The notes under the pieces were generated by a model. The model searched no databases. It was given only the letters and a program-made list of their open reading frames with translations, and was not told the origin of the DNA. The translations under genes were made by a program, and so were the position numbers. From positions 930,001-994,000 of the forward strand of contig NZ_MTSZ01000001.1 of NCBI RefSeq assembly GCF_002118315.1: a stretch of 64,000 nt of DNA. Reading direction: 5' to 3'. This DNA is from Kiloniella majae (GTDB lineage Bacteria; Pseudomonadota; Alphaproteobacteria; Kiloniellales; Kiloniellaceae). Each line of letters starts with the position of its first letter. Position 1 is the first letter of the stretch. Positions 48,168 to 53,246 of this stretch are shown piece after piece.

Positions 48168-49043
48168 ATGACACAACGACAAAAGGATGAAACTATTATC
48201 CATCGACCGCAGATTGTTGCAGTTGATGATGATTGGTTCGATGTTCAGAAAGTCAGTAATAGGCTATATACTATATCTGAGCCGCGACACTATGAGCACA
48301 CCGTCATGAATTTGTTGGTCGGCAAGCAACACGCCGTACTTATTGATACCGGTTGTGGAATTGGAAATTTAAGCAGAGTCGTTGAACAACTCACTAATCT
48401 TCCTGTTACAGTTGTTAACACACATACACATCTTGATCACCTCGGTAGCAATCATCAGTTTTCCGATATCATTATGTTCGATCACCCAAACTCGCGAAAT
48501 GTTTCGCAGAATGGTGCGCTTAAAGAAGATTTTGTCAGAGAGCTTCTCGACGAGAAATTCGTGACCCCGCCATGGCCGCGCAGCTTTGAACTTGCAAGCA
48601 CAACATTGCCACCATTCAAGGTATCACGGTGGATTAAGCATGAAGATATATTAGAACTCGGCGATATTTGCTTGAAGGTTTTACATACACCCGGCGAGGC
48701 ATCAGACCATATATGTTTACTGGAGCAGAATGACCGCATCCTTTTTACAGGTGACATATTGCTTCATGGTGCTGTTTGGTCGCATCTGGATGGTGGGGAT
48801 ATAGAAGAATTGTCTCATAGCTATGAACTGCTCATGCAATATTACGACGAAATCGATTTTCTTATGCCGTCTCATAACACTTCTTGTTTGGAGAAAAACC
48901 TTCTCCCTATAGCCTTGGCGGGTGTGAAGGAGATATTGGATGGAAATGTAGTACCAAGGCAAGGAAAGGATGCTTGGGGCAGATTTTATAATGAGTATGA
49001 TTTTGGACGAATTTCAATTTTAACAAGGCAATTATCTCGTTAA
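48168..49043 (+). CDS. MBL-fold metallo-hydrolase
   Basis: A 291-residue metallo-beta-lactamase-fold protein. The metal motif is THTHLDHLG (HxHxDH) near residue 86. The other ligands are in HTPGEASDHICLL, FTGDILLHG with the bridging Asp, and PSHNTSC with the last His. The gene is AT-rich and its neighbours are decayed, in keeping with a transferred or relict region. The substrate is unknown; thioesters, lactones and phosphoesters are all possible in this family. Confidence 0.88.
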   Translation: MTQRQKDETIIHRPQIVAVDDDWFDVQKVSNRLYTISEPRHYEHTVMNLLVGKQHAVLIDTGCGIGNLSRVVEQLTNLPVTVVNTHTHLDHLGSNHQFSDIIMFDHPNSRNVSQNGALKEDFVRELLDEKFVTPPWPRSFELASTTLPPFKVSRWIKHEDILELGDICLKVLHTPGEASDHICLLEQNDRILFTGDILLHGAVWSHLDGGDIEELSHSYELLMQYYDEIDFLMPSHNTSCLEKNLLPIALAGVKEILDGNVVPRQGKDAWGRFYNEYDFGRISILTRQLSR

Positions 49044-49346
49044 CCGAAAGTGTCTGCCAGTAGGCTGAGAATAGCTTATCCGCGACTGGCCGAACTTGGT
49101 CGGTTTGTCCCAACACCTGCCGTTAATTAAGGCTTTCTTTGAAGTCTGCTTTACTTAAATACTCCCACTTGACAATAGGATCGTTGTCAAGGAACTATGG
49201 CTATAGCCAATAAGATCAATTTACACCGTGTCTTCACAGAAAAACGCGAAAAAAAATCTGTTGAGCCTTCGTCGAGCCCGATGCTATTGCCAGTTGGTTA
49301 CCACCTTTTGGTTTCATCTGCACTGAACATGAGCTTGACAAACAGT

Positions 49347-49390
49347 CCCTCAGACATTATTTCGATAAATGCAGAAATAATGTCTGAGGG
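49347..49390. promoter_or_regulatory. Palindromic operator of the ArsR gene
   Basis: A perfect 17-bp inverted repeat, CCCTCAGACATTATTTC at 49347-49363 and GAAATAATGTCTGAGGG at 49374-49390, with a 10-base spacer. It ends four bases before the chosen ATG of the ArsR gene and includes its ribosome site (GAGGG). A 23-base core at 49358-49380 recurs with two changes at 49767-49789 in front of the permease gene. It is most simply the autoregulatory operator; as RNA it would also form a hairpin over the ribosome site. Confidence 0.75.
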
Positions 49391-49394
49391 TGAT

Positions 49395-49691
49395 ATGGAA
49401 CTGGATAAAGCAGCAGTCTGTCTTTCAAAACTAGGTAACCCGGCACGCCTGGCAATGTTCCGTCTGTTGGTTAAAGCCGGGGACGAAGGGCTTGCTGTTG
49501 GCGACATTCAAAAAGAACTGGATATGCCGCATTCCACACTCTCACACCATATCTCCCACATGATGACATCTGGCCTTTTGATCCAGTCGCGCGAAGGTCG
49601 GGTTTTGCGTTGCCGACTGGATTATCAACTGACAAACAGTCTGTTGGAGTATCTGATGGAAGATTGCTGCAAAGGGCTTCAAGAAGCTTAG
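49395..49691 (+). CDS. ArsR/SmtB family metal(loid)-responsive repressor
   Basis: A winged-helix repressor of 98 residues. The start at 49395 is chosen because family similarity begins there (LSKLGNPARLAMFRLL) and GAGGG precedes it. A longer frame from 49197 would run through the operator palindrome. The recognition helix is MPHSTLSHHISHMMTSGLL. The chain ends in a Cys pair (MEDCCKG), as in the arsenic-responsive ArsR group with C-terminal Cys-Cys, plus Cys residues near positions 9 and 73. It probably represses itself and the permease gene through the shared operator. The inducer is likely a thiophilic metal(loid), but this is untested. Confidence 0.88.
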   Translation: MELDKAAVCLSKLGNPARLAMFRLLVKAGDEGLAVGDIQKELDMPHSTLSHHISHMMTSGLLIQSREGRVLRCRLDYQLTNSLLEYLMEDCCKGLQEA

Positions 49692-49766
49692 CCTCAGAGC
49701 TTAAGCCCGGAACGAATAAGAATATAATTTAAAAGAAGAGATCATGTTGAATAAAGCTTGTGAAAA

Positions 49767-49789
49767 TATTTCGATAATTACAGAAATAA
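49767..49789. promoter_or_regulatory. Second copy of the ArsR operator, upstream of the permease gene
   Basis: TATTTCGATAATTACAG followed by AAATAA matches the core of the palindrome at 49358-49380 at 21 of 23 positions and lies 10 bases before the permease ATG. The half-sites TATTTC and GAAATA are kept, so it should bind the same repressor. Confidence 0.7.
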
Positions 49790-49798
49790 GGTAATGTA

Positions 49799-50860
49799 AT
49801 GTCTTTCCTTGAAATCACAAAATGGAACAGCTTGCGGCTGGATAAGGTTATCCTCGCATTTTTTCTCACCCTCGCGTTGATTGCCATTCTTGATCAAAAC
49901 CAGCTATGGCCTTCGATCGTCTTTGCCGTAAAGAACATTGTTGCCATCCTTCCCTTTATTGCTCTTTCTATTGGTGTTGCGGCCTATACAAAGGCAAGTA
50001 ACCTCGACAGTAAGATCAATACAACAACATCAGGAAACCCCTTAGTCAGCATTGGCATTGCTGCATTATTTGGCACACTATCTCCCTTTTGCTCCTGTGG
50101 AGTTATTCCTTTAATTGCCGGCCTACTCCGTGCCGGTGTTCCTCTGGCTCCTGTTATGGCATTCTGGATCTCCTCTCCCCTGATGGATCCGGAAATGTTT
50201 ATTCTGACCAGCGCCGTTTTTGGTCTGGAGTTCACAACTTTCAAAACCATCGCTGCCTTTTTGATGGGAACGACAGGCGGCATTATTGCCTATTTGATGG
50301 TTCGGGCAGGTTATTTTCAGGAAATCATGCGTCCGCAAACAGCAAGTGGATGTGGATCATCATGCGCCACAAGTTGTGGCGACGATCAAAAAGATGGTGA
50401 CAAAAAACCAAACACAACTGTTTATTGGAAATTCTGGCAGGATCCCAAACGAACTGAAGCCTTTAAGACCGAGGCCATGACCAATGGTTGGTTCCTTTTC
50501 AAATGGTTGGCACTCGCTTTCTTATTCGAAAGCCTGATGGTCGCTTATTTGCCTGTTGATAAAGTTGCCCTTCTTTTTGGGGATGAGCAATGGTGGTCTA
50601 TTCCACTTGGGGCTCTCATCGGTATTCCGGCATATCTGAACGGCTATGCCGCTATCCCAACCATCAACAGCCTGATTGAACTCGGTATGGGCGCAGGCAC
50701 AGGCATGACCTTTATGCTTGCAGGATCAGTCTCGTCAATTCCGGCCGCAATGGGGGTATACGCACTGGTCAAAAAGCCAGTCTTCATCCTCTATCTTCTG
50801 CTCGGCCTTTTTGGGGCAATCCTATCGGGGTATGCTTTTACGGCTTGGTTAACCCTCTAG
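49799..50860 (+). CDS. Permease of the ArsP/YraQ/SO_0444 family
   Basis: A 353-residue inner-membrane permease (PF03773 type) with about eight helices. The family signature SPFCSCGVIPLIAGLLRAGV lies near residue 100. The central cytoplasmic loop (about 180-205) carries a Cys cluster, SGCGSSCATSCGD, likely to bind metal, as in SO_0444-type efflux proteins. A second conserved half reads GIPAYLNGYAAIPTI. Members export methylarsenite, arsenite or copper-type toxic ions. It follows the ArsR gene, which supports efflux of a thiophilic metal(loid). Confidence 0.88.
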   Translation: MSFLEITKWNSLRLDKVILAFFLTLALIAILDQNQLWPSIVFAVKNIVAILPFIALSIGVAAYTKASNLDSKINTTTSGNPLVSIGIAALFGTLSPFCSCGVIPLIAGLLRAGVPLAPVMAFWISSPLMDPEMFILTSAVFGLEFTTFKTIAAFLMGTTGGIIAYLMVRAGYFQEIMRPQTASGCGSSCATSCGDDQKDGDKKPNTTVYWKFWQDPKRTEAFKTEAMTNGWFLFKWLALAFLFESLMVAYLPVDKVALLFGDEQWWSIPLGALIGIPAYLNGYAAIPTINSLIELGMGAGTGMTFMLAGSVSSIPAAMGVYALVKKPVFILYLLLGLFGAILSGYAFTAWLTL

Positions 50861-50877: not shown

Positions 50878-50905
50878 AAGGGCCTTAGTTCCAGCTAAGG
50901 CCCTT
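50878..50905 (+). terminator. Terminator after the permease gene
   Basis: A perfect 11-bp stem (AAGGGCCTTAG and CTAAGGCCCTT) with a 6-nt loop is followed by ATTC. It separates the permease transcript from the chrB promoter. Confidence 0.75.
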
Positions 50906-50942: not shown

Positions 50943-50970
50943 TTGACCTTAGTAAATAACCGCGTAGAAT
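50943..50970 (+). promoter_or_regulatory. Sigma-70-like promoter of chrB-chrA
   Basis: TTGACC at 50943-50948 and TAGAAT at 50965-50970 are 16 bases apart. Transcription would begin near 50977, which is the first base pair of the leader hairpin. The fit to consensus is good for an alphaproteobacterium but is inferred. Confidence 0.55.
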
Positions 50971-50975
50971 TATGA

Positions 50976-51056
50976 CATGGGGTTGCGAACACCCCGTGAG
51001 GCGACAGCCTAAGTTTCGCATCCTAATTCAACACCTAATGTGTGAGAGGATGCGCT
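50976..51056 (+). promoter_or_regulatory. Structured leader RNA of chrB, candidate riboswitch
   Basis: The 80-base leader has four pairing elements. Hairpin 1 is CATGGGGT/ACCCCGTG (50976-50998) with loop TGCGAAC. Hairpin 2 is AGGC/GCCT (50999-51010) with loop GACA. Bases TGCGAA of loop 1 (50984-50989) can pair with TTCGCA at 51015-51020, giving a pseudoknot. CGCATCCT (51017-51024) can pair perfectly with AGGATGCG (51047-51054), hiding the ribosome site AGAGGA of chrB. The last two pairings share CGCA and exclude each other. This is the layout of a translational switch. It may belong to the bioinformatically described chrB RNA motif, which I recall but cannot verify here. Confidence 0.7.
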
Positions 51057-51890
51057 ATGCCATCACCGAATGAAATTAAAATATCTCAATTGTCACGTCT
51101 CGTCGGCACACCGGACTCTCCGGTTATTATCGACTTGCGGATTGACGAAGACTTTGCAGAAGATCCACGATTAATTCCTCAATCTTTTCGTTACCCTTTT
51201 CAGAATATCGCTGCCTTGGCACCATCCCTGCATAATCAGCATGTGGTCGTAAGCTGTCACAAAGGAAAAAAGATCAGTCAGGGAACGGCCGCTATCTTGC
51301 GTGACCATGGTGTACGAACGGAAAGTCTGGAAGGAGGATTTCTCGGCTGGAAAGAAGCAAACAATCCGCTGGTTCCTATAGACAAGATTCCCGACCGAAA
51401 CATCGATGGACGAACCGTATGGGTGACCAGATTACGCCCAAAGATTGACCGCTTGGCTTGCCCCTGGTTAATCCGCCGCTTTATCGACCGCAATGCCCAA
51501 ATTCTCTATGTAACAGCCTCTGAAGTTTTGGACGTCGCAGAAAAGTTCAATGCCACTCCCTTTGATGTTGAAGATGTATATTGGAGCCATCGTGGCCAGA
51601 AATGCACATTCGATACGATGATTGAGGAGTTCTGCCTTGAAATAGAATCTCTCAAGCGACTGGCAACAATAGTCCGCGGCGCAGATACAAACCGACATGA
51701 TCTGGCCCCGGAAGCTGCGGGACTTCTCGCCGCATCACTGGGATTATCGCGTATGTATCGCGACGACCTCCAACAACTGGATGCTGGCATGGCACTCTAT
51801 GACGCCTTTTACCGCTGGGCACGGGATGCCACCGATGAAAGCCACGATTGGCCAGCCCCTAATTCCCAACGCCCCTCAAAGGGGGACTAA
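51057..51890 (+). CDS. chrB: Rhodanese-ChrB chromate resistance protein
   Basis: A 277-residue fusion. Residues about 8-115 are a rhodanese-like domain with the active-site loop VVSCHKGKKISQG (catalytic Cys) and a GGFLGWKEA end. Residues about 125-270 are the ChrB C-terminal domain (VTRLRPKIDRLACPWLIRRFID, shown here in part, then TPFDVEDVYWSHRG). The ATG at 51057 has AGAGGA eight bases upstream; an overlapping GTG at 51042 would destroy the leader arrangement. ChrB acts as a chromate-sensing regulator or accessory protein of ChrA. chrA follows after three bases. The start lies behind the structured leader, so translational control is likely. Confidence 0.9.
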   Translation: MPSPNEIKISQLSRLVGTPDSPVIIDLRIDEDFAEDPRLIPQSFRYPFQNIAALAPSLHNQHVVVSCHKGKKISQGTAAILRDHGVRTESLEGGFLGWKEANNPLVPIDKIPDRNIDGRTVWVTRLRPKIDRLACPWLIRRFIDRNAQILYVTASEVLDVAEKFNATPFDVEDVYWSHRGQKCTFDTMIEEFCLEIESLKRLATIVRGADTNRHDLAPEAAGLLAASLGLSRMYRDDLQQLDAGMALYDAFYRWARDATDESHDWPAPNSQRPSKGD

Positions 51891-51893
51891 GCC

Positions 51894-53246
51894 ATGTCTT
51901 CAATAGAAAATAATATGTCAAAAAATAGCAGTACATCACCCGAGCTCCCCTCTCATGAGGCTGTACCAGCGACCTCTGCTCATCCATCAATGGGGGAACT
52001 ATTTCATGTCTGGCTTAAAATTGGGCTGCTGTCATTCGGCGGTCCAACAGCTCAAATTGCGTTAATGCATCGCATGATTGTCGAAGAACGGAGTTGGTTA
52101 AGCGAACGCCAATATCTCAATGCCCTCAGCTTTTGCATGCTGCTGCCCGGACCAGAAGCCATGCAGCTTGCCACCTATACAGGGTGGCGCTTGCACGGCT
52201 TTCTTGGGGGCTTATTGGCAGGATTACTTTTTGTTATCCCCGGTGCGCTGGTCGTGCTGGCCTTTGCCACGATCTATGCCCTTTTTGGAGATGTTCCGCT
52301 TGTAAACGCTTTATTCCTTGGCGTGAAAGCCTGTGTCTTGATTATTGTTATCGAGGCCCTTCATCGCGTCGCCAAAAAAGTCCTGCATTTACCAGAACAC
52401 TGGATTATTGCAGGACTGGCGTTTATCGGTATTTTCTTTTTAAATCTTCCCTTCCCCGCAATCATCATCGTTGCAGCCTTGTTTGGTTTATTGCGTAACA
52501 ATGCTGATACCACCGCCACTGAAGAAATCAAGAAGCGTACCCGTAATCTTAAGCAAACTTTTGCCACCATTACGCTGTGGCTTGCCATATGGGCGATCCC
52601 GCTTGTCCTGCTAGACGTCTTCGCGCCACAGTCAATCCTCAATGATATCGGAATCTTCTTTTCCAAACTCGCAGTGGTTACATTCGGTGGCGCTTATGCT
52701 GTTCTTGCCTATATGTCACAGGACGTCGTCATTCATTTTGGCTGGTTAACAGCAGGAGAAATGATGGATGGACTGGGGCTAGCTGAAACCACCCCCGGCC
52801 CCTTGATTTTGGTGACAGAGTTTGTCGGGTTCATAGCCGCTTTCCGTGAAGGCGGGTTAGGCCTTGGCCTCCTCGGCGCCCTGGTGACACTGTGGGTGAC
52901 CTTTGCCCCCTGTTTCCTCTGGATCTTTGTCGGTGCCCCTTACATCGACTGGATCGGGAATCAACCAAGATTACGTAGTGCCTTGAGTGGCATTGCAGCC
53001 GCAGTCGTTGGCGTAATCTTAAACCTGTCTATCTGGTTTGGCTTACATGTTTTCTTCTCCAAAGTAGAAGCCGAACCATACGGTCCCTTCACTGTCTGGA
53101 TGCCTGATTTAAGTTCACTGGACTGGCGGGTTATTTTACTCTCGTCAGTTTGTGGCCTACTAATCCTCAAGCTTCATTGGAGCCTCACCCGGGTTTTACT
53201 GATCTCGGCTCTCAGCGGAGCTGGCTTGGTCTGGATTGGGGCATAA
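51894..53246 (+). CDS. chrA: Chromate efflux transporter ChrA
   Basis: Long-chain ChrA of 450 residues with two homologous CHR halves. First half: SFGGPTAQIALMHRMIVEE, LLPGPEAMQLATYTGW and the GWRLHG turn. Second half: TFGGAYAVLAYM and GLAETTPGPLILVTEFVGF. About 11-12 membrane helices are likely. The N-terminal 30 residues are polar and variable. It pumps chromate (and perhaps sulfate-like anions) out with proton coupling. It is cotranscribed with chrB. Its last 11 codons lie inside a 119-bp direct repeat. Confidence 0.95.
   Translation: MSSIENNMSKNSSTSPELPSHEAVPATSAHPSMGELFHVWLKIGLLSFGGPTAQIALMHRMIVEERSWLSERQYLNALSFCMLLPGPEAMQLATYTGWRLHGFLGGLLAGLLFVIPGALVVLAFATIYALFGDVPLVNALFLGVKACVLIIVIEALHRVAKKVLHLPEHWIIAGLAFIGIFFLNLPFPAIIIVAALFGLLRNNADTTATEEIKKRTRNLKQTFATITLWLAIWAIPLVLLDVFAPQSILNDIGIFFSKLAVVTFGGAYAVLAYMSQDVVIHFGWLTAGEMMDGLGLAETTPGPLILVTEFVGFIAAFREGGLGLGLLGALVTLWVTFAPCFLWIFVGAPYIDWIGNQPRLRSALSGIAAAVVGVILNLSIWFGLHVFFSKVEAEPYGPFTVWMPDLSSLDWRVILLSSVCGLLILKLHWSLTRVLLISALSGAGLVWIGA

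Follow-up and report, generated by a model that had tools for sequence, protein, structure and literature searches.

The closest described relatives of the RNA treated here are the chrB RNAs, for which the discovery paper is reportedly Weinberg 2017 and which Rfam holds as two families, chrB-a (RF03078) and chrB-b (RF03086). By mechanism they recall the preQ1 and SAM-II riboswitches, small pseudoknot riboswitches which act on ribosome sites; the likeness lies in a pseudoknot strand beside or overlapping the anti-ribosome-site strand, and is one of mechanism. The fluoride riboswitch is one of the few RNA sensors of anions. A "chrB RNA", the a or b type being unstated, was named by Rivas 2020 (PMC7657543) as a pseudoknot revealed by covariation. 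Among the matches listed by a literature search, no paper on the chrB ligand was found, and by term count "chrB" does not occur in the main text of a review of former orphan riboswitches (PMC7266159).

ChrB of Ochrobactrum tritici is described as a chromate-induced regulator in which the authors assign DNA binding to the N-terminal half and the detection of chromate to the C-terminal half; the purified protein stayed on DNA at the chromate levels tested (PMC3817168). This repressor of TnOtChr (ChrB_N plus ChrB_C) shares with the system described here a controlled chr operon containing chrA and a homologous C-terminal domain, but according to its authors it acts on DNA through the N-terminal half, which the RNA-linked ChrB proteins do not have.

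The chrB leader of Kiloniella majae

A covariance search against Rfam gave a single match above cut-off within the window, i.e. the whole 64-kb stretch of Kiloniella majae DNA that was analyzed. The leader of chrB (Table 1) scored 69.9 bits against RF03078 (cut-off 43.9), with the whole model (1-80) matched, and this is the one RF03078 match in the genome. Against the chrB-b model RF03086 the same bases scored 19.7 bits, under the cut-off of 36.5. Weak matches to BjrC68, on the upstream terminator-like hairpin, and to sR3 fell below cut-off and were set aside. A sequence-only reading of this DNA had pointed to a chrB RNA motif class and proposed the covariance search; the suggestion was right, the class being chrB-a, and the fallback that a non-member would constitute a new class does not apply to a match so far above the cut-off. 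The promoter, hairpins and pairings that it had named were all found in place when the letters were read back.

The leader aligns to P1 and the ribosome-site stem of the model, both of which are supported by covariation, and is located directly 5' of chrB, the match ending at the chrB ATG and ChrB_C being found in the product. The structure line shown for RF03078 marks neither P2 nor the pseudoknot, and both are present in the majae leader. Nothing essential differs from the family; two pairs are added locally to the majae ribosome-site stem. The model match ends on a start codon, its last three bases, in 43 of the 44 loci L002-L045, and the frame that begins there is at least 240 codons long. 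The majae leader is a sound member of an already catalogued RNA class, and what is new here is the context evidence on the signal of chrB-a RNA.

No match to ChrB_N (PF20229) was found in the majae genome at E 0.001, the ChrB of the window consisting of rhodanese and ChrB_C only, and a comparison of this protein with solved structures gave no match at E 0.01. The segment 50977-51059 folds better than its shuffles (z -3.74), 2 of 200 shuffles being equally good. The promoter claimed from position 50943 onward is present, with 10 of 12 matches, though 0.7 such sites are expected by chance in 401 bases. A separate promoter for the chrB leader is suggested by the terminator-like hairpin after the ArsP_1 gene; the scan gave one promoter-like and one terminator-like site, numbers close to those expected by chance (0.7 and 0.4). 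Further upstream, at 48168-50860, are genes for a metallo-beta-lactamase-fold protein, an ArsR-type regulator and the ArsP_1 permease, separated from the chrB leader by this hairpin.

Table 1. Features of the chrB-chrA leader region and flanking genes (positions in the window)
Feature	Position	Strand	Remarks
Terminator-like hairpin 3' of the ArsP_1 permease gene	50878..50905	+	12 pairs; chance expectation 0.4 sites
Sigma-70-type promoter TTGACC-16-TAGAAT	50943..50970	+	TTGACC 50943-50948, 16-nt spacer, TAGAAT 50965-50970; 10/12 matches; fixed distance to P1
chrB-a RNA (RF03078), whole match	50974..51059	+	69.9 bits; final three bases are the chrB start codon
Hairpin P1	50978..50996	+	supported core 50979-50983/50991-50995; weakly supported pair 50978-50996
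Pseudoknot 5' strand GCGAA in P1 loop	50985..50989	+	covariation
Hairpin P2 (AGGC GACA GCCT)	50999..51010	+	three near-constant G-C pairs; no conservation of the outer A-T pair
Pseudoknot 3' strand TTCGC	51015..51019	+	covariation; last two bases also in ribosome-site stem
Anti-ribosome-site strand GCATCC	51018..51023	+	conserved 6; locally 8, 51017-51024
Ribosome-site strand GGATGC	51048..51053	+	conserved 6; locally 8, 51047-51054
chrB: rhodanese + ChrB_C	51057..51890	+	ATG at 51057; ChrB_N DNA-binding domain not found
chrA: chromate transporter family	51894..53246	+	family match

Conservation of the pairing elements

Seventeen of 58 relatives, the majae genome included, carry RF03078, as do 30 of the 385 class genomes. 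Named genomes were also scanned with a pattern, which gave at least 118 stretches, reduced to 80 loci. By the titles of their records, 74 of the 80 listed loci are from alphaproteobacteria and six are from others (L177, L188, L194, L206, L232, L243); records titled Mucilaginibacter, Acidiferrobacterales, Gammaproteobacteria and Arthrobacter are among the latter (L177, L188, L232, L243) and may reflect transfer or misassigned contigs. Among the matches listed, 45 covariance-model matches and the 80 pattern matches together made 125 chrB-a leaders. Six were unparsed (L016, L017, L038, L042, L043, L044), some of which (L016, L042, L044) lack GCGA or TCGC; 119 were parsed, and after removal of five duplicates 114 distinct leaders were retained. 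Because GCGA, CCCC, AGGC and TCGC are set by the scan pattern itself, their constancy carries no weight, and the tests were confined to free positions. Alignment A1 (43 leaders, made without structure) leaves out L017 and L038; alignment A2 leaves out L004, L005, L006, L009, L011, L017 and L038. A quick ChrB tree covered 95 of the 114 leaders.

Hairpin P1 had been read as eight pairs (50976-50983 with 50991-50998), of which five stand firmly and a sixth weakly. The innermost pair covaries, being paired in 95 of 114 leaders (shuffled mean 49.5, maximum 64), while support for the next pair, outside GGGG (50978-50996), is weak: its 91 of 114 equals the highest of 2000 shuffles (mean 86.4). The two outermost pairs (50976 and 50977 with 50998 and 50997) are at chance, with 57 against 58.2 and 90 against 90.9 (of 114), and were rejected as a conserved feature. 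The start of TTGAC is located 36-41 nt 5' of the P1 GGGG in 111 of 114 leaders, in a part outside the scan pattern. From this fixed distance, transcription would begin at the 5' strand of P1, and the lack of conservation in the outermost P1 pairs would then be accounted for.

Hairpin P2 is present where it had been read, with four pairs (50999-51002 with 51007-51010). Three of these are near-constant G-C pairs in the 114 leaders and hence uninformative for covariation; the fourth (A50999-T51010) is formed by 6 of the 114 and was rejected as a conserved feature. Within the P2 loop one more pair scored 58 of 114 (against a shuffled mean of 40.6 and a maximum of 56), but it comes from an ambiguous loop parse and is not claimed.

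The pairing of the P1 loop with downstream bases had been read as six pairs (50984-50989 with 51015-51020). Five hold; the sixth (50984-51020) pairs in fewer leaders (79 of 114) than the shuffled mean (83.9) and was rejected as a conserved feature. The 114 leaders were chosen by their GCGA and TCGC, which leaves the fifth pair free; it is kept in 103 of them (shuffled mean 75.8, maximum 88), as T-A (79), A-T (13), T-G (7) and G-T (4). In the 43-leader alignment, pseudoknot and P2 together are paired in 97.3% of cells (pseudoknot alone 96.2%) against 23.6-41.6% for slid versions. Double-change cells number 15 against 6.1 in shuffles and double-change pairs 2 against 1.0; further pair types are not above shuffles (6 against 6.8). 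Downstream-region swaps among 60 of the 114 chrB-a leaders gave 0/20000 for the pseudoknot strand and 53/20000 for the P2-strand control, which is thus not clean, two P1 controls not being low; chrB-b gave 0/20000 permutations (pseudoknot strand) and 151/20000 (P2 strand), and with both strands conserved this is a weak test in either family.

The stem that buries the chrB ribosome site had been read as eight pairs (51017-51024 with 51047-51054). Its six-pair core was found in 109 of 114 leaders (permuted mean 81.0, maximum 88), and the remaining two pairs are local only. These counts are from a test that took all 114 leaders with no anchor; in a first test, 13 of the 114 were without an anchor. 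The five leaders without the core are L035, L045, L225, L248 and L253, and in some apparent exceptions the stem is changed yet still paired, for example as GCATGT with ACATGC in L179, L195, L202 and L205. In the 43-leader alignment 95.7% of its cells are paired (slid 24.3-53.1%), with 17 double-change cells against 5.1 in shuffles. The RF03078 model already contains this stem. On the ChrB tree (95 leaders), the fifth pseudoknot pair needs six changes among standard states and yields one supported independent pair, which agrees in 0.4 of random pairings; the tested stem pair needs eight changes and yields two, both agreeing. Both numbers are too few for a sign test.

Covariation in all four stems had been named beforehand as the check on the proposed structure. 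It was found in the pseudoknot, the ribosome-site stem and the core of P1, and P2 hardly varies and gives no test; among the 114 leaders covariation thus supports the architecture of a translational switch in which a pseudoknot is combined with a hidden ribosome site. The further claim that pseudoknot and stem share four bases, so that only one can form, was correct as to an overlap, but the conserved cores share only the GC at 51018-51019 and strict exclusion is too strong, since the five-pair pseudoknot and a shortened stem (51020-51024 with 51047-51051) could in principle coexist. Computed energies were -34.7 kcal/mol for the best fold, -18.3 for P1 with P2, -28.8 with the eight-pair stem added and -20.7 with the pseudoknot-compatible five-pair stem instead; the pseudoknot, taken as a plain duplex, adds about -4.6 to the -18.3 of P1 with P2. 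The closed state is strongly favoured and would thus be the default once the ribosome site is transcribed, so the open state would need a ligand or folding kinetics to hold the pseudoknot.

Gene context, signal and alternatives

RNA matches in the 385 genomes of the class were compared with ChrB_C and ChrB_N matches, using strict RNA filters by which some RNAs may have been missed. All 31 chrB-a RNAs are located 343-378 bases 5' of a ChrB_C domain. The 83 ChrB_C matches comprise 43 with an RNA (30 chrB-a, 12 chrB-b, one both), 16 with ChrB_N upstream and 24 with neither, and several of these 24 adjoin ChrB_N operons. ChrB_N was found in none of the 43 RNA-linked matches. In 15 of the 16 cases with ChrB_N upstream it is fused to ChrB_C, and in one it is encoded by a neighbour gene (G123); an RNA was found at none of the 16, including none of the 15 fused. 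The split between RNA and ChrB_N has a Fisher p of 3e-6 (with the 15 fused), the relatedness of the genomes being uncorrected. Rhodanese and ChrB_C were identified in all 38 chrB-a-linked proteins scanned (of 45), ChrB_N not being among the families found. For four chrB-b-linked ChrB_C domains the distance from the RNA to the domain start is only 86-202 bases, too short for a rhodanese domain in between. A chrB-a RNA and, elsewhere, ChrB_N occur together in three genomes (G123, G301, G372), and ChrB_N and chrB-b in eight; the two kinds thus coexist.

The surroundings were compared for 15 of the 21 ChrB_N matches and 15 of the 31 chrB-a matches of the class. The ChrB_N regions contained ChrA (14), superoxide dismutase (SOD; 10), OCD (4), a beta-propeller protein (4, two of them weak) and an MFS protein (1). 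In the chrB-a regions ChrB and ChrA were found and none of the other reference proteins. Some accessory genes are common to both kinds of control: where one genome has them beside a ChrB_N protein, another has them after a chrB-b RNA.

These observations suggest that the regulating job done elsewhere by the DNA-binding ChrB is done here by an RNA, the simplest reading being one signal and two kinds of regulator. The RNA-linked ChrB proteins keep the C-terminal half, so the protein could still be a sensor. The operon split and the common accessory genes narrow the candidate signal to that of ChrB, and for chrB-a, an RNA class without a proven ligand in the literature found, the split makes the question of the ligand directly testable.

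We consider it likely that the chrB-a leader controls the translation of chrB-chrA by setting the pseudoknot against the ribosome-site hairpin. As judged from gene context, the signal is probably the one answered by ChrB-type repressors, most simply chromate. Transcription would start at or near the 5' strand of P1, and P1, P2 and the loop-to-downstream pseudoknot would form first, as the receptor part. By sequence and covariation, the strand closing the pseudoknot ends in the GC which forms the first two bases of the strand hiding the chrB ribosome site. With no signal present, the ribosome-site hairpin would win and chrBA would be little translated. A ligand holding the pseudoknot would make that strand less available, and the ribosome site would open for the production of ChrB and the pump ChrA. 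The result would be an ON switch, as suits an efflux operon, and a riboswitch for a toxic oxyanion would, if this is true, join the fluoride riboswitch among the few RNA anion sensors.

A serious, if rather doubtful, alternative keeps the same RNA architecture and assigns it a ligand other than chromate, be it a naturally occurring oxyanion, of sulfur or otherwise, or a redox or metabolic cue; chromate efflux would then be a by-product. It would account for the rhodanese domain in all scanned chrB-a-linked ChrB proteins (38/38), for the occurrence of the RNAs in many genomes of the class (30/385) and for those chrB-b RNAs which precede transhydrogenase or OCD genes. The genes common with the ChrB_N regions (ChrA in 14 of 15, SOD in 10 of 15) fit chromate instead, the inducer described for ChrB (PMC3817168).

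Autogenous control, in which the C-terminal domain of the rhodanese-ChrB_C protein detects chromate and the protein targets its own leader instead of DNA, appears unlikely. The co-occurrence of chrB-a RNA and ChrB_C (31/31) agrees with it, as does retention of the domain to which chromate detection was assigned (PMC3817168), but only 13 of the 45 chrB-b RNAs precede a ChrB_C match. The other 32, of which at least one is at a contig end, do not (MFS, OCD or ChrA following, for example), and ChrB would be needed there in trans.

It is highly improbable that P1 at the transcription start is an operator palindrome in DNA for a repressor, as its fixed distance from the promoter (111/114) might suggest; P1 pairing cannot tell DNA from RNA, but pseudoknot and ribosome-site stem covary in a manner that is meaningful for RNA only, and the conservation reaches the start codon. 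An RNA thermometer, or a plain ribosome-site hairpin without a ligand, can hardly be credited either, for although a stable hairpin covers the ribosome site, the conserved pseudoknot would be superfluous, and likewise G50998, A50999 and A51012, which lie outside the supported pairs and are at least 90% conserved in the 43 leaders.

The chrB-b RNAs

The chrB-b RNAs (RF03086) share with chrB-a a P1 with GC in the loop seven bases before its 3' strand, P2, CCAAG, the pseudoknot, and a pseudoknot-strand GC which continues into a downstream stem. They differ in a pseudoknot which is mostly GCAG/CTGC, in a wider set of genes and in an often AUGGAC-like start region. L131, L152 and L159 were left out of the chrB-b tests, and 2 of the 65 RNAs were unparsed in the pseudoknot test. 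The 63 parsed pseudoknots include GCAG/CTGC (49), GCGG/CCGC (4) and GCCG/CGGC (3). Pair 3 is intact in 62 of 63 (at most 56 in shuffles) and pair 5 in 52 (at most 48); pair 4, at 62 of 63, is uninformative (shuffled mean 61.0, maximum 62). In the two families taken together, 176 of 177 RNAs keep pairs 3 and 4, but the 114 chrB-a rows do so by way of the parsing. The GC of the pseudoknot strand runs on into the downstream stem in 45 of 65 (permuted maximum 34).

ATGGA was found 10-80 bases after 37 of the 65 chrB-b RNAs, as compared with 3/63 and 3/65 in control stretches; the 49-base Rfam model stops short of this region, and some of these sites need not be real starts. The bases following ATGGA pair with the RNA strand 5' of CCAAG at the second (33/37, p 0.005), third (24/37, p 0.006) and fourth position (17/37, p 0.04); the first (34/37 paired) varies too little for a test. 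This complementarity, clear in L142 (GGTATCC with GGATACC), L147, L155 and L156, suggests a capture of the start region in chrB-b loci. The AUGGAC-like starts are complementary to a conserved strand 5' of CCAAG, and unrelated proteins thus begin with Met-Asp.

Tentatively, chrB-a and chrB-b may form one riboswitch superclass which senses chromate, or an anion derived from it, directly and which replaces the DNA-binding half of ChrB; this is quite possible, though short of probable. In chrB-b the P2-closing strand GUCC could then pass to the start region AUGGAC, and the RNA would thus shape the second codon of unrelated genes.

The first gene after each chrB-b RNA was assigned by tblastn with reference proteins. 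For the 45 RNAs the first recognized gene was ChrB-like (15), ChrA (9), one MFS type (7), OCD (4), another MFS type or DUF2148 (3), the transhydrogenase PntA (2), or none (2), with single cases of SOD, a beta-propeller protein (named from a weak Pfam match) and DUF6815. In L116, L117, L149 and L154, the chrB-b RNA is located 5' of genes of the OCD/mu-crystallin family, and OCD-like genes also occur in 4 of the 15 ChrB_N regions. In L125 and L145 the RNA is followed by a small open frame and then by transhydrogenase-like genes, of which a PntA-like gene is the first.
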